This document shows positions 9,789 through 38,232 of a stretch of 64,000 nucleotides of DNA, piece after piece. Both the position numbers and the translations under genes were made by a program. Origin of the DNA: an uncultured Phycisphaerales bacterium (GTDB taxonomy: Bacteria > Planctomycetota > Phycisphaerae > UBA1845 > Fen-1342); NCBI GenBank assembly GCA_903914415.1, contig CAIWOY010000152.1:1-64000 (forward strand), read 5' to 3'. The notes beneath the pieces are model-generated. The model was not told where the DNA came from, did not search any database, and saw only the letters and a program-made list of their open reading frames with translations. Each line of letters begins with the position of its first letter. Positions within the stretch are counted from its first letter, which is position 1.

Positions 9789-9824
9789 CCGCGTGGCGTT
9801 CGGGGATTATTCAACCCCCCTATG

Positions 9825-9845
9825 GTCCCCCCTGAGAGGGGGGAC
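9825..9845. other. Perfect G/C hairpin between rfbG and the methyltransferase gene
   Basis: GTCCCCCCT and AGGGGGGAC form a 9-bp stem around a GAG loop, 33 bases before the next start codon. It has no T-tract. Within a same-strand operon it may act as an RNA stability or processing element, or be another short repeat. Confidence 0.45.
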
Positions 9846-9877
9846 GGTCTTGCGCCCGATGCGGTAGCGGAGTCAGA

Positions 9878-12063: not shown

Positions 12064-12227
12064 GCGACGCTGCCGCCACTTCGAGCCGTGTATCTCGCCT
12101 TTCGTGAAGCCGTAAGGGCAGCGCGCGCACGGCGTAACACAATCGCGGCGGGGGGGCTCACGTCGTCGGCAAAAATGGCCGACAGGAGGGGATAGCGAAG
12201 GCATGGCCGCGGAAAGAGGAGCTGCGC

Positions 12228-12962
12228 ATGTGGCGCCGAATGAGTATCGCGGTCGCGCTGACACTTCCACTGTGGGTCCTGTCGGGCTGTGCTGATCCCA
12301 CGCTGCAATCGCCGGAGACGCTGCAAGCCGAGTACCAAGCGGCCGTCGCCGATGCCGCGGTCGCGGAGCCGTCCGAGATTTCGCGGGACCTGACGGCGCT
12401 CGTGCCGGACAGTCCGGAGCTGGTTTGGGACGATTCGACCGGCGAGGCGCGGGTCGCGGTCGTGACGTGGACCTCGTGGACGGGCTACGACGGTCAGGTC
12501 GGGCAGACGATCCAGACGAGCCGCGAGGTGTGGGTTACCGCGGTGCCGGAAGTGCAGCGGTTTGCGGCGACACACCTGTTGGGGCCGGCGAACATGACGC
12601 TGCGGCTGGAGCAGTTGCTGGGGCTGCCGTCGAACAACGGCAAGACGCGATTCGTCGAGTTCTGGGTGCGGCCGGCGGATTTGTACCGGCCCAGCCCGGA
12701 CCCCGAGGTCACGGACCGCGAGGCCGAAGTGGACTTCCCCGCGTCCGCCTACACCACGGTGGATCCGAACTACGTCACGTGGTTCCAAAGTCTCGAGGCG
12801 TCGTCGTACGGCGCGAACGGGTATCCGTGGACGCGGCTGGGCTACACGTACGATTGGGGCAACGCGGTGTCCGAGGTCGGTCTCAGCGAATTCGTCATCC
12901 GGCCGGGAGCGACTGTCACCGTGCGGTCGGCGGCGACGACGGAGGACTACTGCCGCTGGTGA
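12228..12962 (+). CDS. Lipoprotein of unknown function
   Basis: This 244-residue protein has a lipoprotein signal peptide with lipobox LSGC at about residues 19-22, so it should be anchored in a membrane facing the periplasm or cell surface. The mature part contains LRLEQLLGLPSNNGKTRFVE and FWVRPADLYRPSPDPEV, which look conserved and structured, but I cannot name the family. AGAGGAG lies 6 bases before the ATG. It is separated from its neighbours by gaps of about 165 and 98 bases, so it may be its own transcript within the sugar block. Confidence 0.8.
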   Translation: MWRRMSIAVALTLPLWVLSGCADPTLQSPETLQAEYQAAVADAAVAEPSEISRDLTALVPDSPELVWDDSTGEARVAVVTWTSWTGYDGQVGQTIQTSREVWVTAVPEVQRFAATHLLGPANMTLRLEQLLGLPSNNGKTRFVEFWVRPADLYRPSPDPEVTDREAEVDFPASAYTTVDPNYVTWFQSLEASSYGANGYPWTRLGYTYDWGNAVSEVGLSEFVIRPGATVTVRSAATTEDYCRW

Positions 12963-13060
12963 TAGGCCGCGGGGCATTTCGAATTCCGGGCTATCATTCT
13001 TGAATTGGGGGGTGCTGCGCTTGCCGTTCCCGCCGTCGGGCCGGATACTGCCGCGGCAGA

Positions 13061-13885
13061 ATGGCTACGCCCGCGCAGGACACGGTGGAGTTGGCACGCC
13101 GGATACGCGCGCACTGCGTGCGCATGACGCACCACGCGCAGGCGTCGCACATTGGCTCGTGCCTGAGCGTGGCCGACGTGCTGGCGGTGCTATACCGCGA
13201 CGTGCTGCGGGTCGATCCTGCGCGGCCGGAGTGGCCCGACCGCGACCGGTTCATTCTGAGCAAGGGGCACGGGGCCGCGGGGCTCTACGCGGTGCTGGCC
13301 GAGTCCGGGTTCTTCCCGCCCGCGTGGCTCGCGACGTATGGCGACGATGGGGGCCGCCTGGCGACGCACGTCGTACGCTATGGCGTGCCGGGGGTGGAGT
13401 TTTCGACGGGGTCGCTCGGGCACGGGCTGTCCGTCGGCTGCGGGATGGCGCTGGCGGGTAAGCGTGAGGGCCGGCCATACCGAGTATTTGTCCAGCTCAG
13501 CGACGGCGAGTGCGACGAGGGCTCGATCTGGGAGGCGGTCCTGTTCGCCCCGCATCACAGCCTCGACAACCTCGTCGCCATCGTCGACTACAACAAGATC
13601 CAGAGCTTCGGCACGGTTAAAGAGGTGCTCGACCTGGAGCCACTGGCCGACAAGTGGCGGGCGTTCCGCTGGGCGGTGCGCGAGATCGACGGGCACGATC
13701 ACCGGCAAATCCTGGACGCGTGCCGCGCGCTGCCATTCGAGCCCGGCCGGCCGTCCACGATCATCGCGCACACGGTGAAAGGCAAGGGCGTCGGCTTCAT
13801 GGAAGACAAACTGCTCTGGCACTACAAGTCGCCGACCGACGAGCAGCTCGCCGCCGCGCTCGCGGAATTGGGGGCGACGCGATGA
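13061..13885 (+). CDS. Transketolase, N-terminal subunit
   Basis: This 274-residue protein is the thiamine-diphosphate-binding half of a two-subunit transketolase. It has HIGSCLSVADVLAVLY, the SKGHGAAGLYA segment and the ThDP/metal motif DGECDEG (D148) followed by a conserved asparagine in VDYNKIQ (about N178). The stop overlaps the start of the C-terminal subunit gene (ATGA). Split transketolases in sugar loci are usually specialised for nucleotide-sugar or modified-sugar chemistry rather than the pentose phosphate pathway. That role here is inferred from the nearby CDP-sugar genes. Confidence 0.92.
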   Translation: MATPAQDTVELARRIRAHCVRMTHHAQASHIGSCLSVADVLAVLYRDVLRVDPARPEWPDRDRFILSKGHGAAGLYAVLAESGFFPPAWLATYGDDGGRLATHVVRYGVPGVEFSTGSLGHGLSVGCGMALAGKREGRPYRVFVQLSDGECDEGSIWEAVLFAPHHSLDNLVAIVDYNKIQSFGTVKEVLDLEPLADKWRAFRWAVREIDGHDHRQILDACRALPFEPGRPSTIIAHTVKGKGVGFMEDKLLWHYKSPTDEQLAAALAELGATR

Positions 13886-14793
13886 GGACCACGTTCATCA
13901 ACACGCTCAGCGAGCTGGCGGCGGCGGATGAGCGGATCTGGTTGCTGACCGGCGACCTGGGCTTCTCGGTGCTCGAGGCGTTTCACGCGCGGTTCCCGAA
14001 CCGCTTCGTCAACGTGGGCGTGGCAGAGCAGAACCTGACCGGTGTCGCGGCGGGGCTGGCGAGCTGCGGCAAGATCGTGTTCACCTACTCGATCGCGAAT
14101 TTCCCGACCATTCGATGTCTGGAGCAGATTCGCAACGACGCTTGCTACAACGAGCTGCCGGTCAAGATCGTCTCGGTCGGCGGCGGGTTCGCGTACGGGC
14201 CGCAAGGCTACACGCACCACGGGCTCGAAGACCTGGCGGTGATGCGGTCGCTGCCGAACATGACGGTCATCGCGCCGGGTGACCCGGTCGAGACGGACCT
14301 GGCGACGCGGGCCGTGTGCGCTCGGCCGGGACCGTGCTATCTGCGGCTGGGTAAGGCCCGCGAGCCGGTGGTGCACCCACAGCCGCCGCCCTTCGCGATC
14401 GGGCAGGCGATTCGACTGCGCGACGGTCGCGACGTAACGCTGATCAGCACGGGCGGAATGCTCGCGCACGCGATGGAGGTCGCCCAGCAGCTCTCACGCG
14501 AGCATAGGGTTGATGCGCGGGTACTCAGCATGCACACGCTCAAGCCACTGGACGAGGAAGCGGTGCACGCCGCAGCTCGCGAGACTGGCGGGATCGTCAC
14601 GGTCGAGGAGCACTCGGTGACCGGCGGTCTGGGGTCGGCGGTGGCGGACGTGCTGGCGACGATGGACGGGGCGCGCGTGCGCTTTCGCAAGTTCGGCGTG
14701 CCGGATCAACTTCATCACCAGATCGGCAGCCAGGCGTACATGCGGGCAGTGTGCGGGGATCTGGCGGCGGCGGTACGGGAGCTGCTGGCGTGA
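13882..14793 (+). CDS. Transketolase, C-terminal subunit
   Basis: This 303-residue protein is the pyrimidine-binding and C-terminal part of transketolase. The GVAEQN motif carries the glutamate (E49) that activates ThDP, and YTHHGLEDLAVMR forms part of the active-site wall. It starts within the stop of the N-terminal subunit gene, so the two are translationally coupled and should form a heterotetramer. I chose MRTTFINTLSEL over the longer frame because homology starts there. Confidence 0.92.
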   Translation: MRTTFINTLSELAAADERIWLLTGDLGFSVLEAFHARFPNRFVNVGVAEQNLTGVAAGLASCGKIVFTYSIANFPTIRCLEQIRNDACYNELPVKIVSVGGGFAYGPQGYTHHGLEDLAVMRSLPNMTVIAPGDPVETDLATRAVCARPGPCYLRLGKAREPVVHPQPPPFAIGQAIRLRDGRDVTLISTGGMLAHAMEVAQQLSREHRVDARVLSMHTLKPLDEEAVHAAARETGGIVTVEEHSVTGGLGSAVADVLATMDGARVRFRKFGVPDQLHHQIGSQAYMRAVCGDLAAAVRELLA

Positions 14794-19774: not shown

Positions 19775-22700
19775 TCACGGTTCGTCGTGCAGCGCCCACA
19801 CCCAGGGGCGGGCGGCGGCGGCATGGCCGCCCGCGACCAGCCACTCGAACACGTGCAAGTAAGCCTGGTACGCCCAGCGCCGATCGAGGCGGCGGGCACG
19901 TTCGGGCGACAGTTCGCAGCGCTCGTTCGACTCCGCCGCGGCACACAGGGCCTCCGCCAGCGCCGCGACGAAGGCGGGATGGTCGTGCTCGACGAGCCGG
20001 TACCAAGTGTGAAGGTCCATCTGCTCAATGTTGGCCACGGGCGGGGGGACGAGCCAATGTCGGAGCCCGTCCAGCACGTCGCGCGCGGCCCCCACATCGC
20101 TGGCCACGATGGGCAGACCCGCACAGAGCGCCTCGGCCAGCGCGAGGCTCCACCCTTCCACAAAAGAGGGCAACACGAAGCCGTCGCATACCGCGTAGAA
20201 CCGCTGCGGATCCGGCTGGAAGCCGAGCCAGTGGACGGCGGCACCGACGCCCAGGCGCGCGGCTTCGGTACGCACCCGGCGCGCATAGGGCTTGTCCATC
20301 GGCGCGCCGAGAAACGCAACCTGAATGTGCGGGTTTCGCTGCCGCGCGCGGGCCAGCGCGGCCACGAGCAGGTGATGCCCCTTGGGCGGGTAGATCGAGC
20401 CTACGTGGAGAAACACGAACGCCTCCGGCGCAAAGCCCAACGCCGCGCGTTCCGCGGATCGGTCGACGCGGGCCCGCGCCGCCGCGATCGCCTCGGTGTT
20501 GATGCCGTTGGGGATGATGATCATGCGCTCGGGGCCAAAGCCGAGCCGCAGGTCCGCGTAGGCTGCCGCCGCGGTCGACACGCAGACGTAGGCCCGAGTG
20601 TGCGGATCGGCGGCGCGGTGCACGGCCCGCTGCTGCGCGTCCAGGCCGACATACGCGCTGTGCACGGTCTGGATGAACGGTACGCCGAGCGCGGCGGCCG
20701 TCGCGGCAAACTGCGGGGCACAATGGGCATTGACGAGGTCGAAACGCTCACGCAGCAGCAGCTCGCGATAGGCGGCGTCGGGGTCGCCCGGAGGCAGCCG
20801 CAGATAACGCAGGCCCAGGGCGCGGGCCTCCTCCACCGCGGCCCCCTCGCGGCCGAGCGACAGGAGCGCGGGTTCATAGCGCTGCCGGTCCAAGGCCTGC
20901 GCCAAGTCGAGCACCACGCGCTCAAACCCGCCCTGGAGGAAGTGGTCCACCTGGAGCAACACACGCAGGCGGCGCTCGGGCGGCGTGTAGACGCGGGGTA
21001 ACGTGCGGGCTCTCCGGTCCGGCGGGTTCGTCGCCCGAAAGAACACGCGGTTGTTCGCGAACGCGAGCGCCGTGGCGAACAGCGTGGGGCCGGGCGTAGC
21101 GCGCAATACAGGGCGAACTGATTGCTCCAGGCGCGCCGCGGTGACCGCATCCGGCACGAAGCACACGTGAGCGTGGCGCCGGACGTGGGCGGCCAGCGCA
21201 TAAGGTGCACGCGGGTCGCTGTCAAACCAGACGGCGACGCAGGCTGCGGCGGTCGGGGCGCGCCGGCCGAGGGCGGTCAGGGCATCGGCGCGCACGAGGA
21301 TAAGCAGCTTCTCATCCGCAGCGCCCTCGATCCGGGCACCATCAGTGGAGAGATCACGCAGCGTGTGCTCTCCCGCAAACGGTTCAAGCCAGGCGCGCGT
21401 GGGCGTGTCGACGTAGATCGTCCAGGGCCGGGCATAGAAGGCCGCGCGCTCCTGCTCGTACGTCATGAGCCGCTGGACGCGCTCCGCGATGCGGTGCTCG
21501 GGTGCGTGTGCACTGAGCGTGTTGTCGTGCACGCGGTAGCGGTAGAGCACGTCGTCCGTGCCGAGGTGGGCGACCCGGAAAAGGCGGTTCATCCGCAGCC
21601 AGTAATCGAAGTCCTCGACGCCCAGGTCCGGCGCGTAGTCCCCGAGGGCCCGCCCGACCCAGCCGCGATACAGAAAGCACGCGCCGATGAAATTGTCGTC
21701 CCGCGTGTGCAGCGTCGCGGTTGAACGGGGCAAATGGATCTCCGGCGACTCGGGCGAGCGCCGGTTGTGCGGTCGGAACGACTGATCGGCCAGCGGCTGG
21801 CCGCGATCGTCGATGGCTAGATAGTCGCAGTACACCAGCTCGACATCCGGGTGGGCGCGCAGGAACGCGACTTGCTTCTCCAGTTGCTGCGGCTCCATCA
21901 GGTTGTCGGCCGAGGTCCAGGTCCAGAACTCGCCGCGGGCGAACTCGAACCCGTTGCTGAGCGCCTTGGGTAGCTTCTGGTTCGGTTGGCTGAGCACGCG
22001 GACCTTCGGGTGTCCGGCGTATTCTCCCAGCACGCGTTCGACGCCGTCCGGCGACCCATCGTCAATGACGATCAATTCGAATTCCGGGTAGGTTTGAGCC
22101 AGCACGCTCTCGATCGATTCGCGGAGCATGTTGGCCTGGTTGTAGACCGGCAGAACGACACTCACCAAGCCCGGTTCGCCGGCCTGGACAGCGGACGCCA
22201 CGGCGACCGGCAGCGCGGCGCCGGGCAGCGCCGGGGGTACCGGCTCTGTGTGCGCGGGCGCCTGACTGGAGCCGCGCCGCCCCGGGCGTGCACGTAGCCG
22301 CAGGCCCCGTTGCTTCCGCATGAACCACTTGGCGGCGCGCTCACGCTGGCTGCCGCGCGGGAACAGGAAGAAGCGGACGCGGTAGAGCCCTTGCAGGAGA
22401 TGCCAGCCAGTGCTCGCGAAGATGCCACGGAGCTGGGTATAGAGCTCCTGATTCGTGGCGAGCAGTTCGTGCAGCTCGGCCGCCTGCCGGGTGACCTGCT
22501 GCGCCGCCGCTTCGGCCTTGTCTTTCTCTTCGCAATAGGCGCGCCAGATGCGGTCGGCCTCGGCGGTCTTGTCACGTAGCTCGGCGGTCTTGTCCCGTAG
22601 CTCGGCCGTCCTGTCTCTGAGTTGCTCGTCAACCCGGCGATACGCCTGGTCGAGCTCCGCCGCGCGCTGCGACAACTCCTGGACCTGCGACCACAGTTGC

Positions 22701-25534
22701 GCCGTCTCCGCGCACTTGGCCTTGTGGTCCGTGTGCAAGCGCTCGGTCCACGTCGTCAGTTCTTTCCAACGCTCGTGCCAAACCCGCGACTGGACGCGCA
22801 GCGCCGCGATCCGCTCCCACACCTCGCGCCGCGCGCCGCCGCCGGTCCGGAACCCCCGCTTCGCGGCGGCGCGCACGGCGGTCAGCATCTGCTCCACCCA
22901 GACCCGCGCCGTGTCCTCGCCCGCGGACGCGTCCGCCTCGCCCGCCTTCTCGAGCAGCACGATATCTGGGCGCAGCTCGCCGTAGCGCTCGGCCAGACGC
23001 GGCTCCCCGGTCAGCACCACGTCGGCGTCGCGCAGCAGCGCCTGGTGGTAGCGGAGGTATCCGGGCGGGGCCTCGCCGTCATCCTGCACTCGCTGCCGCG
23101 GGTCCTCCAGAATGTGGTAGACCACGATCGGGCGCTCGAATTCCAGCACCGCCGGATAGCTGCGTGCATCGTGCAGGTACAGCACCGGGCGCGCGACGCG
23201 CAGCGCGGCCTGCGCGCCCAGCACGTGCACGCCGCCCGCTTCACGGCGTTCCGCGGCGGTGGGCTGGTCTTCGACCATGTGCACGCGCAGTCCGCGTGCG
23301 GCGACGGCCGTCATAAGCTGCCGCGCTCGAGCTGGGAGCGTGTCCCAGCGCTGGCCGGCGCTGCGCGGGTGGACGACTTCGAACGCCGCCAGGAGCTCGG
23401 TTTCCGTGGGTTCCGGCGTGAGGAACCGCCGCAGGGTCCGCCGCCAGCGCTCCTGCCAGATCGATTTGCTGTAGGCCTCGGCGGAGCGCCGGGCGTTTTC
23501 ACCCAGCCGCCGGCGGGTGTCGCGGTCGGCGATCAGGTGCTCGAGCGCGTCCTGCAACGCGGCCGCCGTGGGCGAGATCACCAGCCCGTTGAAGCCGTCG
23601 CACACGAGTTCCGGCAGCCCGCCGACGTCCGTAACCACGACCGCGTTGCCGCAGGCCAGGGCCTCCAGGCAGGACAGGGACGTGCCCTCGCTGGCCACCG
23701 TCGGGATGACGGTGATGTCCGCGTTCTGGTAGGCGCGGACCATCTCGTCGGGCTGGAGGAAGTCGTGTTGGACCTTGTCGCCGAACTGCGCGCGCAACTC
23801 GTCCATCCGGCGGGCCTCTTCCGGGTCTGCCTGACCCACGAAGCGGAATTCGAGCTCCGCGTGGCGGGCCAGCAGCTCCGGGACGACCTCGGCCAGCAGC
23901 CAGAAGCCGCGCGGGCGATAGAGCCGGCGCGGATACAGCACGACGCAGCGGCCGTCGGACGCCCGCGGCTGCGGGCGGAAGAGGTCCGTGTCGACGAAGT
24001 TCGGGATGTACGTAAACCGGTCCGCCAGGTCGCGGTGCGTCGCGCGCACCCAGTTGATCGTGTTGGCGTCCACCGACACGACGTGCGCGCAGTTGGCCAG
24101 CGCCCGCCGCAGGGCTTGGGTCTCGGCGGGCGTCTGGTACGCGGCGTGATCCCAAAAGATCCCGTGACTGATGCCGAGCGCCCGCGCGTGGCAGAGCGGC
24201 TCCGCGACGTCGAACGCGGAGTAGATCGTCAACGCGCCGGGCGGCGCGCCTTGGTGGAAAAGTGCATTCAGCAGGCGATTGTCCCCGTACGTCGGCAGCC
24301 CGTGCACCGGCGTCCCCTCGTAGCTGCGCTCCCAAGCCTCGTTGCCGCACTGGTAAATGTGCGGCTCGAAGCCCAGCTCGCGTACGACGCGGCTCAGCTC
24401 AGGCAGATAGCGCTCCGCCCCTCCGCCCATGAGCTGTTGCCCGTCCCGGTCGAAAAACAGATACGAGACGATGTTGACCACGGTCGTCGCCACGGGCGGC
24501 GGCGGGCCCGTGAGCTGGGCCGGAACCGCCACTTCCGCCAGCGGCGTCAGCGCGAGTGCCGCCAGGAGGGCGGACACTTCCTCCTCGCGCTGCGCCAGCA
24601 TCTGGTGCAGCGCCGCGACATCACCAGCCTGCCCCCGTTGGGCGCGCCCCACGACGGTCGCCGCTTGCTCCTGCGCCTGCTCGACCAGGCGCCGCATCGA
24701 GGCCAGGGCTCCGTTGGCCGTGCCCAGGGCGTCCAGGTAGAAAGTGCGGTCCAGGGTCTCGCGGTCGTCGTCGGCGCGTGGGGCCGGCGTGGCGGCCGTG
24801 TCCGGGGCGTAGACGAAATACTGGAGATAGGCAGTCCCCTGCGCCGCTTGCCCGCTCGCCAGAATCGCCTCGAACCATCGGCGGTCCCCGGGCGACTTCA
24901 CCACGTAGGCCAGCCACGCCCGCGTGTACTCGGCGCCGCAGTAGCCATACCCGGCCGGCCGCAGTCCCGCGGCGGCGGCGGCGGTTTCGTAGTCCGAGCG
25001 CAGGAACTCGACACCGACGTCCCAGCGCTGCTCGGCCAGCATTTTCGCCCGGTACGCCAGGTAGACCAGGCTCTCGGGGTTCGGCACGATGAAGAGCACG
25101 CGCTCGCGGGCCGCGGCGCCCATCTGTGCGAGGGCGGTCTCCAGCCGGTCGCGGGAGAAGTGCTCGAGGACCCCGCTGTTCCAGACGACGTCGTAGCTTT
25201 GCGGGGCCACGGCGGCGCCGAGCTCCAACAGGTCTCCCGCGATGAACTGCGACGGCGTTTCTTCTCCGAAGGCGGCCCGGTATGCCGCGCGGGCCTTTCC
25301 CAAGGCCACCTCGCTGAAGTCCAGCAGGTCCGTGTCGTATCCGGCCCGACGCAACTCGAGCGAGATGTGTCCGGAGCCGCAACCCGCCTCCAGCAGCCGG
25401 CGCGGCGGCGTCAGTCCCTCCCGCCGCAGCAACTCGGTGACCTCGCGCGCCAGGGCGCGCGCCGCGGGTGTGGCCTCGGCGCCATAGTCCTGCGCGACAT
25501 CGTCCCAGGTCTCGGGCCGGGGCATCAACGGCAT
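19775..25534 (-). CDS. 1919-residue multi-domain protein: methyltransferase, GT4, degenerate GT, coiled coil, GT2, GT4
   Basis: The single frame joins several enzymes. Residues 1-215 are a class I SAM methyltransferase (LLEAGCGSGH, 47-56). Residues 352-705 are a GT4 glycosyltransferase with EGTSLSCLEALACGNAV. Residues 715-890 look like a partial, degenerate glycosyltransferase. A long coiled coil spans about 905-1035, with a tandem heptad of ELRDKTA type. A GT2 domain lies at 1122-1360 (SVVLPVYN, VIDDGSPDG, TSADN). Residues 1365-1515 are a weaker glycosyltransferase-like segment, and 1522-1900 a second GT4 (EGWSLALAEALCAGLPIVASDVG). The ATG abuts the wzt stop with AGGAG 6 bases upstream, so it is co-expressed with the ABC exporter. 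The methyltransferase may cap chain ends. Substrates are unknown, but assembly and termination of an ABC-exported glycan is the best inference. Confidence 0.92.
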   Translation of the reverse strand: MPLMPRPETWDDVAQDYGAEATPAARALAREVTELLRREGLTPPRRLLEAGCGSGHISLELRRAGYDTDLLDFSEVALGKARAAYRAAFGEETPSQFIAGDLLELGAAVAPQSYDVVWNSGVLEHFSRDRLETALAQMGAAARERVLFIVPNPESLVYLAYRAKMLAEQRWDVGVEFLRSDYETAAAAAGLRPAGYGYCGAEYTRAWLAYVVKSPGDRRWFEAILASGQAAQGTAYLQYFVYAPDTAATPAPRADDDRETLDRTFYLDALGTANGALASMRRLVEQAQEQAATVVGRAQRGQAGDVAALHQMLAQREEEVSALLAALALTPLAEVAVPAQLTGPPPPVATTVVNIVSYLFFDRDGQQLMGGGAERYLPELSRVVRELGFEPHIYQCGNEAWERSYEGTPVHGLPTYGDNRLLNALFHQGAPPGALTIYSAFDVAEPLCHARALGISHGIFWDHAAYQTPAETQALRRALANCAHVVSVDANTINWVRATHRDLADRFTYIPNFVDTDLFRPQPRASDGRCVVLYPRRLYRPRGFWLLAEVVPELLARHAELEFRFVGQADPEEARRMDELRAQFGDKVQHDFLQPDEMVRAYQNADITVIPTVASEGTSLSCLEALACGNAVVVTDVGGLPELVCDGFNGLVISPTAAALQDALEHLIADRDTRRRLGENARRSAEAYSKSIWQERWRRTLRRFLTPEPTETELLAAFEVVHPRSAGQRWDTLPARARQLMTAVAARGLRVHMVEDQPTAAERREAGGVHVLGAQAALRVARPVLYLHDARSYPAVLEFERPIVVYHILEDPRQRVQDDGEAPPGYLRYHQALLRDADVVLTGEPRLAERYGELRPDIVLLEKAGEADASAGEDTARVWVEQMLTAVRAAAKRGFRTGGGARREVWERIAALRVQSRVWHERWKELTTWTERLHTDHKAKCAETAQLWSQVQELSQRAAELDQAYRRVDEQLRDRTAELRDKTAELRDKTAEADRIWRAYCEEKDKAEAAAQQVTRQAAELHELLATNQELYTQLRGIFASTGWHLLQGLYRVRFFLFPRGSQRERAAKWFMRKQRGLRLRARPGRRGSSQAPAHTEPVPPALPGAALPVAVASAVQAGEPGLVSVVLPVYNQANMLRESIESVLAQTYPEFELIVIDDGSPDGVERVLGEYAGHPKVRVLSQPNQKLPKALSNGFEFARGEFWTWTSADNLMEPQQLEKQVAFLRAHPDVELVYCDYLAIDDRGQPLADQSFRPHNRRSPESPEIHLPRSTATLHTRDDNFIGACFLYRGWVGRALGDYAPDLGVEDFDYWLRMNRLFRVAHLGTDDVLYRYRVHDNTLSAHAPEHRIAERVQRLMTYEQERAAFYARPWTIYVDTPTRAWLEPFAGEHTLRDLSTDGARIEGAADEKLLILVRADALTALGRRAPTAAACVAVWFDSDPRAPYALAAHVRRHAHVCFVPDAVTAARLEQSVRPVLRATPGPTLFATALAFANNRVFFRATNPPDRRARTLPRVYTPPERRLRVLLQVDHFLQGGFERVVLDLAQALDRQRYEPALLSLGREGAAVEEARALGLRYLRLPPGDPDAAYRELLLRERFDLVNAHCAPQFAATAAALGVPFIQTVHSAYVGLDAQQRAVHRAADPHTRAYVCVSTAAAAYADLRLGFGPERMIIIPNGINTEAIAAARARVDRSAERAALGFAPEAFVFLHVGSIYPPKGHHLLVAALARARQRNPHIQVAFLGAPMDKPYARRVRTEAARLGVGAAVHWLGFQPDPQRFYAVCDGFVLPSFVEGWSLALAEALCAGLPIVASDVGAARDVLDGLRHWLVPPPVANIEQMDLHTWYRLVEHDHPAFVAALAEALCAAAESNERCELSPERARRLDRRWAYQAYLHVFEWLVAGGHAAAARPWVWALHDEP
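22561..22623 (-). repeat. Three tandem 21-bp units encoding coiled-coil heptads
   Basis: Within the giant glycosyltransferase, units at 22561-22581, 22582-22602 and 22603-22623 encode repeated (E)LRDKTA heptads. The first two differ by one base and the third is diverged. This marks recent expansion of the coiled coil by replication slippage. Confidence 0.85.
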
Positions 25535-26926
25535 CTAGGGCTCCTGCGGCCGGATGGGCCGGGCGCTCACGGCGTGCGCGAGGCGGGCGAGGCCGCCGAT
25601 CATCTGGTAGCGCGCCGGCTCGCGCAGCTCAAGTGCGAACTTGAGGATGTCGTGCGCATAGTACAGCACGGCGGCGAAGCCTTCCTCCTGCAATCCGATG
25701 GTCACAAAGTAGGTGTCCGGGCGGAGATCGCACTTCACGGAGGCCTCGATCCGGACCTCCTCGCCCGCCCGCAGCGGCCCCAGCCCCAGTTGCGCGCCGC
25801 GCGTCGAGAAGCCGAAGACATCCGTCCCATACCGGTCCCGCAGCAGCACGCCAAACAGAAAACCCGTCACGTCCGCGTACGCCCGCACGGTGGCATGGAT
25901 TCGCACGGTGTCGCCTTCGAACAGCACCGCACGGGCGGGGTCGTCGGGCCGGATGTCGGCCGTGACCACCCGCAGCACGCCGCTGTCCTGCACACTCGTC
26001 GCCGTATTTGGCGCGTGCACATAGCGGTCGAGCACCGGCCCGTCCTCGTTGCCCGTCGCCGCAGTGCTGCCTGCGCCGGCCGGGTCCGGCGTCGCGGGCG
26101 TGCTGGTGTGCTCCTGCAGCAGGTCGCTCAGATACGCGTCGCAGACCTCGCTGGCCGGTCCGACGCACTGCGTGCGTCCGCGCTGCAGGTACAGCGCGCG
26201 GCTGCACAGGCTCCGCACGAGCTCGAGGCTGTGGCTGACAAAGAGAATGGCGACGCCGCGCGCCCGGAGCTGGTCCAGCCGGCGGAAACACTTGCGCTGG
26301 AACGCGGCGTCGCCGACCGCCAGCGCTTCATCGACGATCAGCACGTCCGGCTCGAGCAGGGCCTGCACGGCGAACGCCAGCCGCACCACCATGCCGGTGG
26401 AGTAGGTCTTGACCGGCTGGTCGATGAACTCGCCGATGTCGGCAAACGCGGCTACTTCGTCGAAGCGGGCGGCGATGGCCTCGCGCGCCAGCCCCAGCAG
26501 CGCGCCGTTCAGATAGACGTTCTCCCGCCCCGTGAACTCAAAGTTGAAGCCCGAGCCCAGCTCCAGCAGGGCATGGACGCGTCCGTGAACCTCGACCTGC
26601 CCCTCGGTCGGCCGCAACGTACCTGCGATCACCTGGAGCACGGTGCTCTTGCCGGACCCGTTCCGGCCGATGATGCCGAACGACTCGCCCCGGCCCACTT
26701 CGAAGGAAACATCGCGTAGCGCCCAGAATTCCCGGTAGAACGACCGCCGCCCGCGCCAGAGCGTCTGCTTGAGCCGGTCGAGCGGGCGGGCGTAGATCTC
26801 GTAGCACTTGCCCAGCGCGCGAACCGCGACTACCGGCGTAGCCGCACTGGCGTACGCCGGGTCCGCGTCGCGTAGCGCCGCGGCCGGCGCGGAGCCGAGC
26901 GTGGTCGCCGGCGGGTCAGGCGTCAT
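25535..26926 (-). CDS. wzt: Polysaccharide ABC exporter ATPase with C-terminal glycan-binding domain
   Basis: This 463-residue protein is the nucleotide-binding subunit of an ABC exporter for O-antigen or similar glycans. Walker A GRNGSGKST (87-95), the Wzt-type signature YSTGMVVRLAFA and Walker B VLIVDEALAVGD are intact. After a low-complexity linker (about 290-325), a C-terminal beta domain of about 140 residues matches the Wzt extension that recognises the glycan's non-reducing end. The start MTPDPPATTLG was taken over a longer low-complexity frame. The partner permease gene (31664-32521) is on the same strand but separated by two opposite-strand genes. Confidence 0.93.
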   Translation of the reverse strand: MTPDPPATTLGSAPAAALRDADPAYASAATPVVAVRALGKCYEIYARPLDRLKQTLWRGRRSFYREFWALRDVSFEVGRGESFGIIGRNGSGKSTVLQVIAGTLRPTEGQVEVHGRVHALLELGSGFNFEFTGRENVYLNGALLGLAREAIAARFDEVAAFADIGEFIDQPVKTYSTGMVVRLAFAVQALLEPDVLIVDEALAVGDAAFQRKCFRRLDQLRARGVAILFVSHSLELVRSLCSRALYLQRGRTQCVGPASEVCDAYLSDLLQEHTSTPATPDPAGAGSTAATGNEDGPVLDRYVHAPNTATSVQDSGVLRVVTADIRPDDPARAVLFEGDTVRIHATVRAYADVTGFLFGVLLRDRYGTDVFGFSTRGAQLGLGPLRAGEEVRIEASVKCDLRPDTYFVTIGLQEEGFAAVLYYAHDILKFALELREPARYQMIGGLARLAHAVSARPIRPQEP

Positions 26927-27301
26927 CGGCAATCCCCGCGGGCGCCACGGCCTCGGGTCGGACGGGCGCCGTCGTTGCCGACGATGGGTGCACAGCGTCA
27001 CCGGTCCGGCCCGCACGCCCCAGAATGACCACACACATCAACATGACCGCTCGCGCTCGTACCGGAGCCAACCGCGCACACCACACCCCCCAAACGCCCA
27101 CCGTGGGCGCCATCCGCCTACGCCGCAGTATTCCGGCGAGACCAGTGTTGCCCGAGTCCGCGTTTAGATCAAGGCCGGCTCGTTACCGTCGGTCCCCGTG
27201 AAGCCGATTGCTGCGCTGGCTCGGCGCCGATACCCTGCGCAGCCGAATTCGCGGGCGGCGTCCGCGAGGGGCCCTGGACGCGTTCGTCGCGAGGAATCGT
27301 G
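26927..27301. other. Divergent intergenic region between wzt and the GT-C pair
   Basis: These 375 bases separate wzt (minus) from the first GT-C gene (plus) and must carry promoters for both. I see no tRNA, strong hairpin or clear -35/-10 pair. A likely Shine-Dalgarno (GAGGAA) for the plus gene is at 27291-27296. Confidence 0.5.
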
Positions 27302-30300
27302 ATGGCGGTGACAGTCGCGGATTGGCTCTGGGTGCTCGTCACTCTGGTCGCGGCCGGTGCCTTCACGTTCGGCGTGTTCGTGGTCGTGCGCCGCAGTGTT
27401 CCGGATCGGCCGCTGAGCGAAACGCTGCTGCTCACGAGCATCGTCACCGCCCTCGCGCTCTATGCCGAGCCGTACCTGCTCTCCTTCCTGCCGTTGGAGC
27501 GCCCGCTGCGGCTGCTCCCGCTGGCGCACGTGCTCCTGACCGCCGCGCTGCTGGCGTGTGCCCGCTGGCGCTACGGCGTCGGCATCGCACGCGAGACGCT
27601 GCGCGCCCTGGCCGGACGAAGCTGGGCCTTCCTCCGCACCGTCGGCCCCGTGCTCACGGTGGCCCTGGTCGGCCTCGTCGTGCTGCTGGGGGTCTACGCC
27701 GCCTACGGCGCGTATACCGTCCCCACGTTCTGGGATGACCTGTGGTACCACGTCCCCATGGCGGTACAGCCTTGGCAGGACGGCCGCGTGGACGCGGTCC
27801 CCAATGAGGCGGCGGTTCGCGAACTCGGCGTCCAGACGCCGCGCGGGCAGTTCCGCAGCGACAGCCCGCAACCGTCCTTGTTCCCGCGCGGCGTCGAGAT
27901 GCTCTGGTATTGGACGCTGCAGTGGACCAGCACTGACTTGCTCTTCCACGCCGTCCTGCTGGCGCTGGGCGTGCAACTGCTCTTGGCGATCTACGTGCTG
28001 GCCCGCCGACTGGGCGCGGCGCCCTGGGCCGCCACCGTCGCGGCGCTGGCCATGGCGAGCACGCCGATTTTCTACCTTCTGACGACCACCGGCTACGTCG
28101 ATATCGGCACGGGCGCCTCGGTGGTGGCGCTGGCCGCGTTTCTAGCGCCGGACGGCCGGCCGGGCAGCCGGGGTCTGCCGAACTGGGGCGCCGCGGCCCT
28201 GGCGCTGGGCGAGGCTTGCATCGTCAAGTACCCGTTCCTCGCGCTCGTGGTCGGCGGCGTCCTAGCCGTCGAAGCCGTCTTGTTCCGCGTGGGCCCGTGG
28301 CGCGGCCTGCTGCATCTGCTGCGATTCGTGTTCTCATGGCGCGGCGTGGCGGCACTGGTCATTGTCGCGGGCTGCGCGCAGACCTACGTGGGGCATTACC
28401 TTCGCTATCGCAATCCCTTCTACGCGTTCCGCATCACGGTGGCCGGTCATGAGATCTTCCCCGGCTGGCACGATCCTGGCACGACGAACCTCGGCGGCGA
28501 GAGCACGGCCGCCAAGCCGATCCCGGAGATGTCGCGGCCCGAGCTGTATTACCATGCCTGGACCGACTTCCGGGCGCCGCTCACCTGCGAATCGTTCGGC
28601 TCGTTCGCCGAGGTGTTTCCGTGCGCTCTGCTCGTTCCGGCGCTGGTGTTCGCGCTGTGGGGACTGCTGACATTCAACACGCCGGTCGTGGCCGCCACCC
28701 TCGGGGTCCTGCTGTGCCTGGCGTTCACGCCGGTAGCCCCGCCGCGGTATGGGTTGCCCATCGTCGCGATTCTGTTCGTGTTCGGCATGCGGATGTGGTC
28801 GGAGCTGCGCGGGCGGTTGACGACGGCGGTCACGCTGGCTGTGCTCGCGCTGTGCACGCCGGGGCTGGCGCGCGGTCTCGCGCACTTCCGCTGGTGGATG
28901 CACGTGTACCGGGACGGAGGGCCCGTGTCGTGGACCGCGCGGAACCGCAGCTTCCACGAGAAGTACATCGTCAGCCCGCCGCACGCCCCCTCGCTCCCCA
29001 TGATCAAGTACATTCGTGAGCATGCCGGGGCGGGCGATCGGCTGGTCTGGACGGTCCACGCGCTGCCTACGCTGCTCTACAATTCCCGCTGGACTAACGA
29101 GTTGTACTTCCTGCCGGGCCTGCCAGAGAAGGAGTCCTGGCCGGCCGTACCGGGCCGGTCGCCGGTGCCGCCCGATCGGCTGAACGCCTGGCTAGCCGAG
29201 TTGCGTCGCCTCGCGCCGCGTCACGTCCTCCTTTACACCAAGTCCGACTATGCGCGCGGCCTGCTTGAGCACCCGGAGCTGGGTTACCGCGAGGTGTTCC
29301 GCGACGACGACCCCGCACGCAAGGAGTTCGCGATGGTGCTGTTCGAGCGCGGTGCCCCGGCACCGGCGACCGCACCCGCTTCGAGCGCGGCGTCGGCGCC
29401 CGCGCCAGCCAGCACGTCGGCACCGGCTGGAGCTGATGGTGGCGGCGGCGCGACGCCGATAGCTGGCGAGGAGTTGTGATGGCGGTGACGGTCGCAGACT
29501 GGCTGTGGGTGTTCGTCACTCTGGTTGTGGCCGGTGCCTTCACGTTCGGCGTGTTCGTGGTCGTGCGCCGCAGCCTTCCGGACCGGCCGCTCAGCGAAGC
29601 GCTGCTGCTGACGAGCATTGTCACCGTGCTCGCGCTCTATGGCGAGCCGTACCTGCTCTCCTTCCTGCCGTTGGAGCGCCCGTTGCGGCTGCTCCCGCTG
29701 GCGCACGTGCTCCTGACCGTCGCGCTGCTGGCGTGTGCCCGCTGGCGGTACGGCACGGGTTTCGCACGCGAGACGCTGCGCGCCGTGACCGGACGAAGCT
29801 GGGCTTTCCTCCGCACTGTCGGCCCCGTGCTCACGGTCGCCCTGGTGGGCCTCGTCGTGCTGCTCGGCGTTTACGCCGCCTTCGGCGCCTACACCGTCCC
29901 CACGTTCTGGGACGACCTCGCGTATCACGTCCCCATGGCGGTACAGCCCTGGCAGGACGGCTGCCTGGACGTGGTCTGCAGCGACGCGCCGGTCCGCGAG
30001 CTCGGCGTCCAGTCGCCACGCGGGCAGTTCCGCAGCGACGCCCCGCAACCGTACCTGTTCCCGCGCGGCGTCGAAACGCTCTGGTACTGGACGTTGCAGT
30101 GGACCGGCACCGACTTGCTTTTCCACGCGGTACTGCTGGGACTGGGGGTGCAACTGCTTTTGGCGATCTATGTGCTGGCCCGCCGGCTCGGCGCTGCACC
30201 CTGGGCCGCGACGGTTGCGGCGCTGGCGCTGGCGAGCACGCCGATTTTCTACCTGCTGACGACCACGGGCTACGTCGATATCGGGACGGGCGCCTCGGTC

Positions 30301-31620
30301 GTCGCGCTGGCGGCGTTTCTGGCGCCCGACGGCCGGCCGGGCAGCCGCGGTCTGCCGAACTGGGGCGCCGCGGCCCTGGCGCTGGGCGAGGCTTGCATCG
30401 TCAAGTACCCGTTCCTCGCGCTCATCATCGGCGGCGTCCTCGCCGCCGAAGCCGTCTTGTTCCGCGCGGGCCCGTGGCGCGGCTTGCTGCACCTGCTGCG
30501 ATTCGTGTTCTCATGGCGCGGCGCGGCGGCGCTGGTCATTGTCGCGGGCTGCGCGCAAACCTACATCGAGCACTATCTCCACTATCGCAACCCCTTCTAC
30601 GCGTTCCGCATTGCGGTGGCCGGCCATGAGATCTTCCCCGGCTTGCGTGATGTCGGCACGACCAACTTCGGCGGCGAAAGCACGGCCGCCAAGCCGATCC
30701 CCGAGATGTCGCGGCCCGAGCTGTATTATTATGCCTGGACCGACTTCCGGGCGCCGCTCACCTGCGAATCGTTCGGCTCGTTCGCCGAGGTCTTTCCGTT
30801 CGCTCTGCTGGTTCCGGCGCTGGTGCTCGCCTTGTGGGGACTCTTCAGGCTCGACGCCCCGGTTGTGGCCGCCAGCATCGGCGTGCTGCTGTGCCTGGCG
30901 TTCGCCCCTGTCGCCCCGCCGCGCTACGGGCTGCCCATCGTCAGCATTCTGTTCGCGTTCGGCATGCGGATGTGGTCGGAGCTGCGCGGGCGGTTGACGA
31001 CGGCGGTCACGCTGGCTGTGCTCGCGCTGTGCACGCCGGGGTTGGCGCGCGGCGTCGCGCAGCTCCGCTGGTGGATGCACGTGTACCGGGACGGAGGGGG
31101 CGTTTCCTGGACCGCCCGGAACCGCACCTTCCACGAGAAGTACAACGTCAGCCCGCTAAGCTCCGCTTCTCTGCCGATGATCAAGTACATTCGTGAGCAC
31201 AGCGGCGCCGGCGATCGGCTGGTTTGGACGGTCTACCTCGCCCCCACGCTCATCTACAACTCCCGCTGGAACAACGAGTTGTACTTCCTCCCGGGCCTGT
31301 CGGAGAAGGACATGTGGCCGGGCGCGCCCGGCCAGTCGCCGGTGACGCCCGATCGGCTGAACGCCTGGCTGGCCGAGCTACGTCGCCTCGCACCGCGGCA
31401 CGTCCTCCTTTACACCAGCTCCGACTACGCGCGCGGCCTGCTCGAGCACCCGGAGCTGGGCTACCGCGAGGTCCTCCGCGACGACGACCCCAAGCGGAGG
31501 GAGTACAAGGTAGAGGCCGTGCTGTTCGAGCGCGGTGCTCCAGCACCGGCTACCGCGCCCGCTTCGAGCGCGGCGTCCGCGTCCGCGCCAGCTACCGCGT
31601 CGGCGCCGGCGACGCAACCG
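27291..31620 (+). repeat. Tandem duplication of about 2.17 kb
   Basis: Two direct copies (about 27291-29467 and 29468-31620) each include a Shine-Dalgarno, the start region and a complete GT-C-like gene. Protein and DNA similarity is very high across the whole unit, including long identical DNA runs mid-gene, and drops only in the Ala/Pro-rich tails. Confidence 0.85.
27302..29479 (+). CDS. Polytopic GT-C-like membrane glycosyltransferase, tandem copy 1
   Basis: The 725-residue protein has many hydrophobic helices. A conserved acidic WDD motif (FWDDLWYHVP, about 143-152) falls in the first large loop, the position of the catalytic D-D/E motif in GT-C enzymes that use lipid-linked sugars at the outer face of the membrane. 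A C-terminal soluble part ends in an Ala/Pro-rich tail. Copy 2 follows immediately; over the first 161 residues I count 13 differences. A third paralogue is at 41390-43465. ATG 27302 and GTG 27299 are both possible. The family assignment is by architecture only. Confidence 0.8.
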   Translation: MAVTVADWLWVLVTLVAAGAFTFGVFVVVRRSVPDRPLSETLLLTSIVTALALYAEPYLLSFLPLERPLRLLPLAHVLLTAALLACARWRYGVGIARETLRALAGRSWAFLRTVGPVLTVALVGLVVLLGVYAAYGAYTVPTFWDDLWYHVPMAVQPWQDGRVDAVPNEAAVRELGVQTPRGQFRSDSPQPSLFPRGVEMLWYWTLQWTSTDLLFHAVLLALGVQLLLAIYVLARRLGAAPWAATVAALAMASTPIFYLLTTTGYVDIGTGASVVALAAFLAPDGRPGSRGLPNWGAAALALGEACIVKYPFLALVVGGVLAVEAVLFRVGPWRGLLHLLRFVFSWRGVAALVIVAGCAQTYVGHYLRYRNPFYAFRITVAGHEIFPGWHDPGTTNLGGESTAAKPIPEMSRPELYYHAWTDFRAPLTCESFGSFAEVFPCALLVPALVFALWGLLTFNTPVVAATLGVLLCLAFTPVAPPRYGLPIVAILFVFGMRMWSELRGRLTTAVTLAVLALCTPGLARGLAHFRWWMHVYRDGGPVSWTARNRSFHEKYIVSPPHAPSLPMIKYIREHAGAGDRLVWTVHALPTLLYNSRWTNELYFLPGLPEKESWPAVPGRSPVPPDRLNAWLAELRRLAPRHVLLYTKSDYARGLLEHPELGYREVFRDDDPARKEFAMVLFERGAPAPATAPASSAASAPAPASTSAPAGADGGGGATPIAGEEL

Positions 31621-31623
31621 TAG
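29479..31623 (+). CDS. Polytopic GT-C-like membrane glycosyltransferase, tandem copy 2
   Basis: The 714-residue near-twin of the preceding gene has the same helix pattern and FWDDLAYHVP motif. Its ATG overlaps the previous stop by one base, with GAGGAG just upstream, so the pair is translationally coupled. One difference next to the putative catalytic acids (W to A) could change specificity. The C-terminal tail is Ala/Ser/Pro-rich and shorter than in copy 1. It is convergent with wzm, whose stop is 40 bases away. Confidence 0.8.
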   Translation: MAVTVADWLWVFVTLVVAGAFTFGVFVVVRRSLPDRPLSEALLLTSIVTVLALYGEPYLLSFLPLERPLRLLPLAHVLLTVALLACARWRYGTGFARETLRAVTGRSWAFLRTVGPVLTVALVGLVVLLGVYAAFGAYTVPTFWDDLAYHVPMAVQPWQDGCLDVVCSDAPVRELGVQSPRGQFRSDAPQPYLFPRGVETLWYWTLQWTGTDLLFHAVLLGLGVQLLLAIYVLARRLGAAPWAATVAALALASTPIFYLLTTTGYVDIGTGASVVALAAFLAPDGRPGSRGLPNWGAAALALGEACIVKYPFLALIIGGVLAAEAVLFRAGPWRGLLHLLRFVFSWRGAAALVIVAGCAQTYIEHYLHYRNPFYAFRIAVAGHEIFPGLRDVGTTNFGGESTAAKPIPEMSRPELYYYAWTDFRAPLTCESFGSFAEVFPFALLVPALVLALWGLFRLDAPVVAASIGVLLCLAFAPVAPPRYGLPIVSILFAFGMRMWSELRGRLTTAVTLAVLALCTPGLARGVAQLRWWMHVYRDGGGVSWTARNRTFHEKYNVSPLSSASLPMIKYIREHSGAGDRLVWTVYLAPTLIYNSRWNNELYFLPGLSEKDMWPGAPGQSPVTPDRLNAWLAELRRLAPRHVLLYTSSDYARGLLEHPELGYREVLRDDDPKRREYKVEAVLFERGAPAPATAPASSAASASAPATASAPATQP

Positions 31624-31663: not shown

Positions 31664-32521
31664 CTAGAGCACGTCCGCGAACCCCCGCTTGGTCTTCATG
31701 AACCACGCGTAGCCGAGTTGCAGGACGATGAGGGAGATGACGGTTACCGCCGCCAGCCAGGACCACTCGGGCCGCTGCCCCCACAGCAACGTGTTGCGGG
31801 CGTTCACGACGATGACGGTCAGCGGGTTGGCCCGCATGGCGACTTGGAACGCGAACGGCTTGTCCTCGATGGAGTAGAAAATGGGACTCAGGAACATCAG
31901 CACCTGGAGCACGACGCCGATGACCTGCCCCGTGTCGCGCAGATAGACGCCGAGCGAGGCGAGCCACCACGCCAGCCCGAGCGTCAGCGGCAACAACGGG
32001 AGGAGGACCAGCGGGAACCAGACCAGCGTCGGCGAGACGGTGTACGTGAAGATGAGGCTGCCGAGCAACAGGACCGCCACGCCGATCAGGGCCTGAACCA
32101 GCGCCGCCCCCAGCGCGCACACCGCCAGGACCTCCAGTGGGAATACCACCCGCTTGACGTAGCTGACATTCCCCGCGATCAAGTTGGGGGCCAGGCCGAG
32201 CGTTTCCGAGAAGAGCCCGTAGACGATCAGGCCCGCATAGAGCGTCAGGGCGAAACCGGCGGTGGATTGGCTGACGGCGTTCGGCCAGCGCGAGCCGAGC
32301 ACCACACCGAACACAAACGTGTACACCGCCAGCATGATCAGCGGCAGGAGGAACGACCACAGCAAGCCAAGCGCGGCCCCACGATAGCGCGCCTGCACCT
32401 GTCGGATCGTGAGTTGCCGGATCAGGCCCCGGTATCGCCACAGGGTGCGCGGGATGAGGTCCGGCCGCAGGTAGTGGGCGACCGAGAGCGAACGAGGCTC
32501 GATCCGCATCGTCTCTTGCAT
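31664..32521 (-). CDS. wzm: Polysaccharide ABC exporter permease
   Basis: This 285-residue integral membrane protein is the ABC-2 type permease (Wzm/TagG family). It has an N-terminal cytoplasmic helix, about six membrane segments, and the family-typical RQVQARYRGAALGLLWSFLLPL and VVNARNTLLWG segments. With Wzt it moves lipid-linked glycan across the inner membrane. Usually wzm and wzt are adjacent; here the two GT-C genes lie between them on the opposite strand. The start codon (ATG 32521, or 32509) lacks a strong Shine-Dalgarno. Confidence 0.92.
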   Translation of the reverse strand: MQETMRIEPRSLSVAHYLRPDLIPRTLWRYRGLIRQLTIRQVQARYRGAALGLLWSFLLPLIMLAVYTFVFGVVLGSRWPNAVSQSTAGFALTLYAGLIVYGLFSETLGLAPNLIAGNVSYVKRVVFPLEVLAVCALGAALVQALIGVAVLLLGSLIFTYTVSPTLVWFPLVLLPLLPLTLGLAWWLASLGVYLRDTGQVIGVVLQVLMFLSPIFYSIEDKPFAFQVAMRANPLTVIVVNARNTLLWGQRPEWSWLAAVTVISLIVLQLGYAWFMKTKRGFADVL

Positions 32522-32782: not shown

Positions 32783-33922
32783 TTGAAACGCGTCATGCTT
32801 GTGTTCGGCACCCGCCCCGAGGTCATCAAGCTCGCGCCGCTCGTCCACGCGTATCGCGCCCGTCCGGCTGACGTCGCGTTGACCCTCTGTGCGACCGGCC
32901 AGCATCGGCAGATGCTGGCCGCGACGCTGGCCGCGTTTGACCTGCGGGCCGATCTCGACCTCGACCTGATGGTGGCCGGCCAGCAGCCGAGCGATTTCCT
33001 CGGGCGCCTGCTGCTCGCGCTACGGCCGGTCCTGGAGGAAGTCCGGCCCGACATGGTCGTCGTGCAAGGCGATACCGCCACGGTGATGGGCGCTGCGCTG
33101 GCGGCGTTTCTGCACGGAGGGCGTGTGGCACACGTCGAGGCGGGCCTGCGCACGCGCGACAAGCGGGCCCCGTTCCCGGAAGAGGTCAACCGGCGCGTCA
33201 CTAGCGTCGTCGCGGATTATCACCTTGCGCCGACCGAGGCGGCCCGGCAGAACCTGCTGCGCGAGGGCGTCGATCCGGCCACGGTGTTTGTGACCGGCAA
33301 CACGGTGATCGATGCCCTGCGGTGGATGCAGCAGCACGTGGCCGGCCGCGCGCTCCCCGCAGAGCTGGACCCCGGCGGCCGCCGGCTGATCCTCGTCACC
33401 GCGCACCGCCGCGAGAGCTTCGGCCAGCCGTTTCGGGAGCTGTGCCTCGCGTTGCGGGACATCGCGGAGCGTTTCGACGACACCTGCTTGATCTACCCGG
33501 TCCATCTGAACCCCAACGTGCAGAAGCCGGTACACGAGATCCTCGACGGGTGCCCGCGGGTCCGGCTGGTCGAGCCGGTCGACTACGCGAGGTTCGTGGC
33601 GCTGCTGTCGCGGGCGCACCTTGTGATTACGGACTCCGGCGGGATTCAGGAGGAGGCCCCGGCGCTCGGCAAGCCCGTGCTGGTGCTCCGCGACAAGACC
33701 GAGCGGCCGGAGGCGATCGCCGCCGGCGTCGTGAAGCTCGTCGGCACGCAACGCGGGCGCATCGTGGATGAGGCGACGCGGCTGCTCTCTGATCCGGCCG
33801 CCTACGCCGCCATGGCGCGGGTCGTGAACACGTACGGCGACGGCCTGGCCGCGACGCGGATCGCGGAAGTGACGGTGGACGGCGTGATGCGGACGCCGCC
33901 GTTCGTGGGGCCATCGTGCTGA
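32783..33922 (+). CDS. wecB: UDP-N-acetylglucosamine 2-epimerase family enzyme (WecB/WbpI)
   Basis: The 379-residue enzyme epimerises C2 of UDP-GlcNAc or of a di-N-acetylated uronate derivative. Motifs are GTRPEVIKLAPL, QGDTATVMG, HVEAGLRTRD, TAHRRESFG and the late TDSGGIQEEAP. A TTG start is chosen with GAGGG 7 bases upstream. Together with downstream WbpE-, WbpB- and WbpD-like genes it may act as the last step (WbpI) to UDP-ManNAc3NAcA rather than as plain WecB. Confidence 0.93.
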   Translation: MKRVMLVFGTRPEVIKLAPLVHAYRARPADVALTLCATGQHRQMLAATLAAFDLRADLDLDLMVAGQQPSDFLGRLLLALRPVLEEVRPDMVVVQGDTATVMGAALAAFLHGGRVAHVEAGLRTRDKRAPFPEEVNRRVTSVVADYHLAPTEAARQNLLREGVDPATVFVTGNTVIDALRWMQQHVAGRALPAELDPGGRRLILVTAHRRESFGQPFRELCLALRDIAERFDDTCLIYPVHLNPNVQKPVHEILDGCPRVRLVEPVDYARFVALLSRAHLVITDSGGIQEEAPALGKPVLVLRDKTERPEAIAAGVVKLVGTQRGRIVDEATRLLSDPAAYAAMARVVNTYGDGLAATRIAEVTVDGVMRTPPFVGPSC

Positions 33923-34010
33923 GTTGCGGCGCGGGGCGGGGCGGGAGAGGACCGGCGTGAGGACACGCCGGCTCGGCTGGGTGTCTGTGGGCAGGGGCGG
34001 CGCGGTGCCG

Positions 34011-34016
34011 TATACT
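34011..34016 (+). promoter_or_regulatory. Possible -10 box for the aminotransferase gene
   Basis: TATACT is 33 bases before the ATG, in a 127-base gap after wecB. No clear -35 is seen, so an internal promoter is only possible. Confidence 0.3.
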
Positions 34017-34049
34017 GCCCGGCCACAGACTCACCCAGCGGAGACCGTT

Positions 34050-35171: not shown

Positions 35172-35279
35172 CGGTGCGCGCGTCTTGACGACCGGGAGGC
35201 CCGCCGTAGAGTGGGGGCGGTACGTCGCGCGTGCGGATTGGATGAACGGGGCGCCCTTCGGTGGCGCGAGGAGTAGCGT

Positions 35280-37408: not shown

Positions 37409-37481
37409 GCGGGCCGACGAGGGGACGGAAGCTGCGGACGCCGGCGTGTGTTCTGCCGCGCTGCCGGGAGAGGCGAAACAG

Positions 37482-38168: not shown

Positions 38169-38232
38169 GCGGCAGCGGCGCGGTTAGCGTGGCGGGGAGG
38201 CGGCACTCGACACCAACAGGAGTACATCTGCG

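Follow-up and report, generated by a model that had tools for sequence, protein, structure and literature searches.

In Klebsiella pneumoniae O7, ORF6 carries a methyltransferase, a kinase, a CBM, a coil and two GT2 modules in one chain, and WbbB of K. pneumoniae O12 likewise unites a terminator, a coiled-coil ruler and a polymerase; for both proteins the order terminator-coil-polymerase has been established experimentally (PMC11231755). In the WbdD/WbdA systems of Escherichia coli O8 and O9a, a methyltransferase is combined with a coil that is considered to determine, through its own length, that of the O antigen (PMC11231755), the polymerase is recruited, and the O8 WbdD has a methyltransferase only. 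WsaE of Geobacillus stearothermophilus, a 2-O-methyltransferase-GT-GT protein whose S-layer glycan bears a methyl cap, is described with three active domains and no ruler coil (PMC2943079). In characterised systems, Wzt recognises the terminal group of the glycan through its C-terminal domain (PMC3482155, PMC11231755).

The current study concerns a 64,000-nucleotide stretch of DNA from an uncultured Phycisphaerales bacterium (the window), which encodes a 1919-residue multidomain protein comparable to all of these. Like O7 ORF6, it is a single chain with an N-terminal methyltransferase, a central coil and two C-terminal polymerase GT modules, encoded in a wzm-wzt locus. Unlike ORF6, it has no recognised kinase or CBM, its polymerase modules are GT2 and GT4, another GT4 precedes the coil, on its cap side, and its relatives carry one or two methyltransferases. 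With WbbB of Raoultella terrigena and K. pneumoniae O12 it would share a single-protein design that combines polymerisation, ruler and termination, but the WbbB terminator is an N-terminal GT99 Kdo transferase, whereas that of the window protein is presumably its SAM methyltransferase, together with a GT4. As in both Klebsiella types, the locus encodes Wzm together with a Wzt that ends in a glycan-binding domain, and the coil separates an N-terminal candidate terminator from C-terminal polymerase GTs, an order read here from sequence alone. Where the Klebsiella proteins have a membrane-associated amphipathic helix after the coil, the window protein has a conserved basic/aromatic candidate segment. 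The WbdD/WbdA systems have in common with it the methyltransferase plus coil and a Wzt with a cap-reading domain, but the polymerase recruited there is fused here, and a split form does exist in other genomes of the same order. The window methyltransferase profile matches WbdD (4azw) at E 0.0011, behind many generic methyltransferases, which constitutes superfamily-level similarity only. WsaE also places a methyl-capping domain and polymerising GTs in one chain, and the overlap of wzm, wzt and wsaE can be likened to the coupling with wzt seen here, but the window protein has a coil of 140 residues.

The preliminary description of this DNA proposed a self-contained machine that polymerises, measures and caps. 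This idea is plausible given the order of cap and polymerase modules, the neighbouring Wzt_C domain and the co-variation presented below, but it is not new, since O12 WbbB, O7 ORF6 and WsaE are already in the literature. The window locus differs from these published cases in several respects: 1) the cap-side GT4, 2) the lack of a recognised kinase, 3) the GT2-GT4 polymerase, 4) the exchange of cap halves, and 5) a phylum-wide pairing between methyltransferase and Wzt reader domain. The one-protein plan would reach beyond enteric bacteria into a distant lineage.

The open frame, its domains and its coil

The protein is encoded by an open frame of 1919 codons at the position given in the preliminary description, which left the strand unstated; it runs from 25534 to 19775 on the minus strand, and the plus strand over the same interval is interrupted by stops. 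Its ATG sits flush against the TAG of wzt, as expected from the earlier remark that it begins directly after that gene, and a GGAG lies ~8 bases upstream of the ATG, within wzt. The GTG at 27034 may not be the true start of Wzt, which could lie farther downstream. An assembly artefact as the source of the fusion is ruled out, because uninterrupted chains built to the same plan, of 2049, 2106 and 1482 aa, are also present on contigs of other genomes. An opposite-strand frame of 1365 aa (22622-26719, +) overlies confirmed domains and was dismissed as a chance ORF. Coordinates of the locus features are collected in Table 1.

Table 1. Features of the 1919-residue protein and of its transporter genes
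Feature	Position	Strand	Basis
1919-aa multidomain protein (whole ORF)	19775..25534	-	open frame; ATG directly at wzt stop; Pfam
Class I SAM methyltransferase domain, residues 1-245	24800..25534	-	Pfam; motif I EAGCGSG at 49
Short weak coil between methyltransferase and GT4, residues 273-330	24545..24718	-	heptad score 0.48, near threshold
GT4 domain on cap side of coil, residues 350-705	23420..24487	-	Pfam; EX7E at 616
Region without family match, residues 706-900 (extra GT of the preliminary description)	22835..23419	-	Pfam, PDB searches
Long coiled coil, residues 901-1040	22415..22834	-	heptad score; AlphaFold2 helix
Conserved basic/aromatic segment after coil, residues 1041-1081 (STGWHLLQGLYRVRFFLFPRGS...), candidate membrane-associating helix	22292..22414	-	conserved in relatives
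GT2 domain, residues 1119-1375	21410..22180	-	Pfam; DDG at 1158, SADN at 1208
Conserved region without family between GT2 and GT4, residues 1376-1525	20960..21409	-	conservation in relatives
C-terminal GT4 domain, residues 1526-1916	19787..20959	-	Pfam; EX7E at 1793
Wzt: ATPase domain (residues about 67-300) and Wzt_C glycan-binding domain	25535..27034	-	ABC_tran E 3e-21, Wzt_C E 3e-17
Wzm, ABC-2 membrane subunit	31664..32521	-	ABC2_membrane E 2e-22

From the N terminus, the confirmed order is methyltransferase, short coil, GT4, a region without family, a coil of ~140 residues, a conserved basic segment, GT2, a second region without family and GT4. Pfam places Methyltransf_25 at residues 48-141 (E 3e-12), Glycos_transf_2 at 1125-1251 (E 2e-28) and Glycos_transf_1/GT4 stretches at 518-683 and about 1535-1830 (E 3e-55), whereas NCBIfam matches general GT families only. 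All motifs listed in Table 1 are intact, including the SAM-binding motif I, and the methyltransferase is 33-38% identical to the coil-adjacent methyltransferases of G021 and G009. The methyltransferase, two GT4 domains, GT2 and long coil named in the preliminary description are thus borne out by Pfam, motifs and coil score, but the extra GT that it placed between the first GT4 and the coil is not, as that region has no Pfam match and its best PDB match (E 0.034) is not significant. A PDB search with the region between GT2 and the last GT4 returned no match. No kinase family was found in the protein by Pfam at E<1, a search to be read in light of the O7 kinase, which is itself unannotated in sequence.

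Both coils were called with an in-house heptad score, and the long one includes a coil-type Pfam match at residues 935-1019. Structure prediction, which the preliminary description had suggested as a check on the domain arrangement, yielded a single unbroken helix at 901-1057, but the model was otherwise poor: AlphaFold2 was run from single sequences on both halves with a mean pLDDT of 40, and the long helix alone was used. Helices at 261-298 and 304-328, overlapping the weak-coil stretch, were of low confidence. As one straight helix, the long coil would extend ~20 nm. The methyltransferase is not joined to it directly, a point absent from the preliminary description; the GT4 and the family-less region lie in between. 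Within the coil is a 21-bp tandem repeat of 2.7 copies (22559..22615, -), the unit of which is exactly one heptad (TAELRDK), and the longest coil among the relatives (L117) contains 46-residue tandem repeats, which together indicate that coil length can change by gain or loss of repeats. Lengths among the relatives range from about 50 to 830 residues. Such a range fits rulers of differing length, but it also fits a loose spacer; by analogy with the published rulers, the coil of the window protein may measure chain length.

Seven loci (L086, L095, L100, L115, L117, L118 and L137) encode methyltransferase-coil proteins adjoining wzt that share one related methyltransferase and Wzt C-terminal domain type and whose coils range in length from about 120 to 830 residues. 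Having one methyltransferase/Wzt type and varied coils, this series provides natural material for relating coil length to glycan length.

Cap halves, polymerase halves and the Wzt reader domain

When examining the distribution of the protein, it is evident that the family is sporadic. A query consisting of the conserved segment and GT2 matched 9 of 114 genomes of the order, and in the rest of the phylum the best matches covered the GT2 part only; a public genome scan with the whole protein returned one match, an unrelated GT2. Five other genomes encode the C-terminal half (segment-GT2-x-GT4) at 53-62% identity, with its GT2-GT4 pair kept as a unit, whereas the part preceding this half varies. 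In place of the methyltransferase-GT4-coil of the window protein, L015 has GT4-MT-MT-coil-GT2-GT4 directly after wzm-wzt, L017 has MT-MT-coil-GT2-GT4 about 1.1 kb after wzm-wzt, and L019 has a methyltransferase and a short coil ahead of the polymerase half. In L024, directly after wzm-wzt, MT-MT-coil is followed by two GT2 domains. Stand-alone polymerase halves (GT2-x-GT4) with neither coil nor methyltransferase occur at L020:8419-11091 and L021:7144-9816, and both begin inside the segment matching residues 1041-1081; each stands beside a different ABC ATPase gene.

The split form, a separate methyltransferase-coil protein directly after wzt, was found at five loci of the same order (L062, L063, L064, L067 and L068), and methyltransferase-coil proteins after wzt are common phylum-wide. 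Seven further loci in the phylum (L087, L089, L092, L104, L107, L120 and L129) have a methyltransferase-GT2 protein after wzt with no comparable coil in between; these resemble WsaE but lack its second GT. A 1417-aa methyltransferase-coil-GT2-GT2-GT4 fusion of the same plan was also encountered at L082:10338-14591 (-), away from the wzt operon of that contig.

Since the Wzt C-terminal domain reads the terminal group in characterised systems, it should track the methyltransferase, and not the polymerase, if the methyltransferase caps. Among the window (G000), G009 and G045, the polymerase half is 55-61% identical and the Wzt ATPase domain 66-72%, yet the Wzt C-terminal domain is just 19-23% identical. 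Conversely, G009 and G021 end in GTs of different families but have 49% identity between their coil-side methyltransferases and 45% between their Wzt C-terminal domains. This constitutes a double dissociation, in which the Wzt C-terminal domain goes with the methyltransferase and not with the polymerase half.

The same association is evident across 36 loci having a methyltransferase gene adjoining wzt. When similarity matrices were compared, the Wzt C-terminal domain and the methyltransferase correlated with r 0.96, part of which is accounted for by inheritance of the whole locus. Given the Wzt ATPase domain, the partial correlation was 0.82 with a linear correction and 0.60-0.64 with curved fits; the Wzm control gave -0.18. 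The curved fits, strata, Wzm control, thinning and threshold scan were added because a linear correction can mislead when both quantities saturate. In a thinned set of 24 loci, all 276 of 276 pairs were concordant, 15 being related in both proteins and 261 in neither, although such pairs are not independent. As the first thresholds had been set after seeing the data, a range was scanned: the concordance holds at methyltransferase thresholds of 0.2-0.35 and Wzt C-terminal thresholds of 0.15-0.3, owing to an empty gap between the classes in both distributions, whereas 8 thinned pairs turn discordant at a methyltransferase threshold of 0.15. Among the 33 thinned pairs with ATPase similarity of at least 0.62, 15 were related in both, 18 in neither and 0 were mixed; below 0.62 there was no positive correlation, because both similarities are at the noise floor.

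A co-variation of this kind is what would be predicted of a cap recognised at export, and these comparisons support a cap-and-export role for the 1919-aa protein. It also lends support to the earlier view of its domains as partners on one pathway. The polymerase half, the cap half and the reader domain of the transporter behave as exchangeable blocks. Pairing of the Wzt C-terminal domain with a methyltransferase thus offers a sequence-only route to propose which neighbouring enzyme terminates a chain.

Proposed assembly route and its rivals

The window protein is probably an all-in-one assembly enzyme for a polysaccharide exported by an ABC transporter, a reading to which we assign a probability of roughly 0.7. 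The product would probably be an LPS O antigen. Its repeat-unit sugars would be added by the C-terminal GT2 and GT4, which the conserved post-coil segment would keep near the membrane, while the coil would space the N-terminal methyltransferase and its neighbouring GT4 away from the polymerase. Only chains long enough to reach the methyltransferase would receive an O-methyl cap, and the Wzt C-terminal domain would recognise the methylated end for export through Wzm. Counting against this route are the GT4 and the family-less region that part the methyltransferase from the main coil, the widely varying coil lengths of the relatives, and the two divergent genes between wzm and wzt. The arrangement posited in the preliminary description agrees with this route, as polymerase-type GTs appear at the C-terminal end and an active-looking methyltransferase at the N-terminal end, with the long coil between them and a Wzt_C-bearing Wzt adjoining.

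Presumably, the methyl group itself is the cap. The lack of a recognised kinase family favours a simple O-methyl cap, of the kind made in E. coli O8 and by WsaE, over a methylphosphate; however, the O7 kinase is cryptic in sequence, so residues 706-900 leave room for a methylphosphate cap. The cap-side GT4 may add a terminal sugar. We tentatively consider, at less than even odds, a two-step cap in which a terminal sugar reserved for this purpose is attached by the GT4 and then methylated by the methyltransferase next to it, the ruler separates the combined GT and methyltransferase unit from the polymerase, and cap units swap among similar polymerases together with a matching Wzt glycan-binding domain.

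Internal O-methyl groups are frequent in surface polysaccharides, and the methyltransferase could therefore decorate residues within the repeat, with the coil as an oligomerisation or membrane scaffold that holds the pathway enzymes together and neither capping nor measuring taking place. The highly variable coil length among relatives and the presence of two methyltransferases in some of their chains would suit such a scaffold. We nevertheless consider it unlikely, as the Wzt C-terminal domain tracks the methyltransferase and neither the polymerase nor Wzm, that domain reads a terminal group where it has been characterised (PMC3482155, PMC11231755), and in the coil systems that have been characterised termination falls to the N-terminal enzyme (PMC11231755). 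Capping might also proceed with no measuring by the coil, leaving chain length statistical or dependent on some other factor. Methylation by WsaE is indeed independent of chain length in vitro (PMC2943079), and the seven methyltransferase-GT2 loci manage with no comparable coil. However, the 140-residue coil occupies a place between cap and polymerase modules that is preserved whether these are fused or split, matching the two systems in which a ruler has been shown (PMC11231755), which renders a passive coil quite improbable. It is barely conceivable that the protein is a mosaic of GTs, each acting once to build a fixed, non-repeating oligosaccharide that offers no polymer to measure. GT2 and GT4 modules are freely shuffled among the relatives, as such a mosaic might require, but GT2 and GT4 are conserved together as one unit, and the combination of Wzm-Wzt with a coil is the marker of length-controlled polymers (PMC11231755).

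Surrounding genes

LpxC was found in the same genome, which makes lipid A, and hence an LPS O antigen, plausible for the product of the all-in-one enzyme. Beyond wzm, the plus strand (32783-39009) encodes a WecB-type UDP-GlcNAc 2-epimerase, a DegT aminotransferase, an LPG_synthase_TM flippase-like protein, a Gfo/Idh oxidoreductase, an LbH transferase and a GT2. This set suggests synthesis of a UDP-ManNAc3NAcA-type sugar, an assignment we presume from general pathway knowledge. The wzm and wzt genes share a strand and are separated by two divergent genes (27299-31623, +), which encode tandem multi-membrane proteins that are 88% identical to each other and fall into no clear Pfam family; near the related G009 locus (L015:17621-19642) lies a homologue with 29% identity. 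Farther away, the interval 8625-14793 (+) contains genes for a sugar C-methyltransferase (Methyltransf_13/14), two epimerase/dehydratases and a transketolase-like protein, which may form a branched-sugar pathway, and the product of a gene at 108-5543 (+), 1811 aa long, combines FG-GAP repeats, DUF7619 and a dockerin domain.
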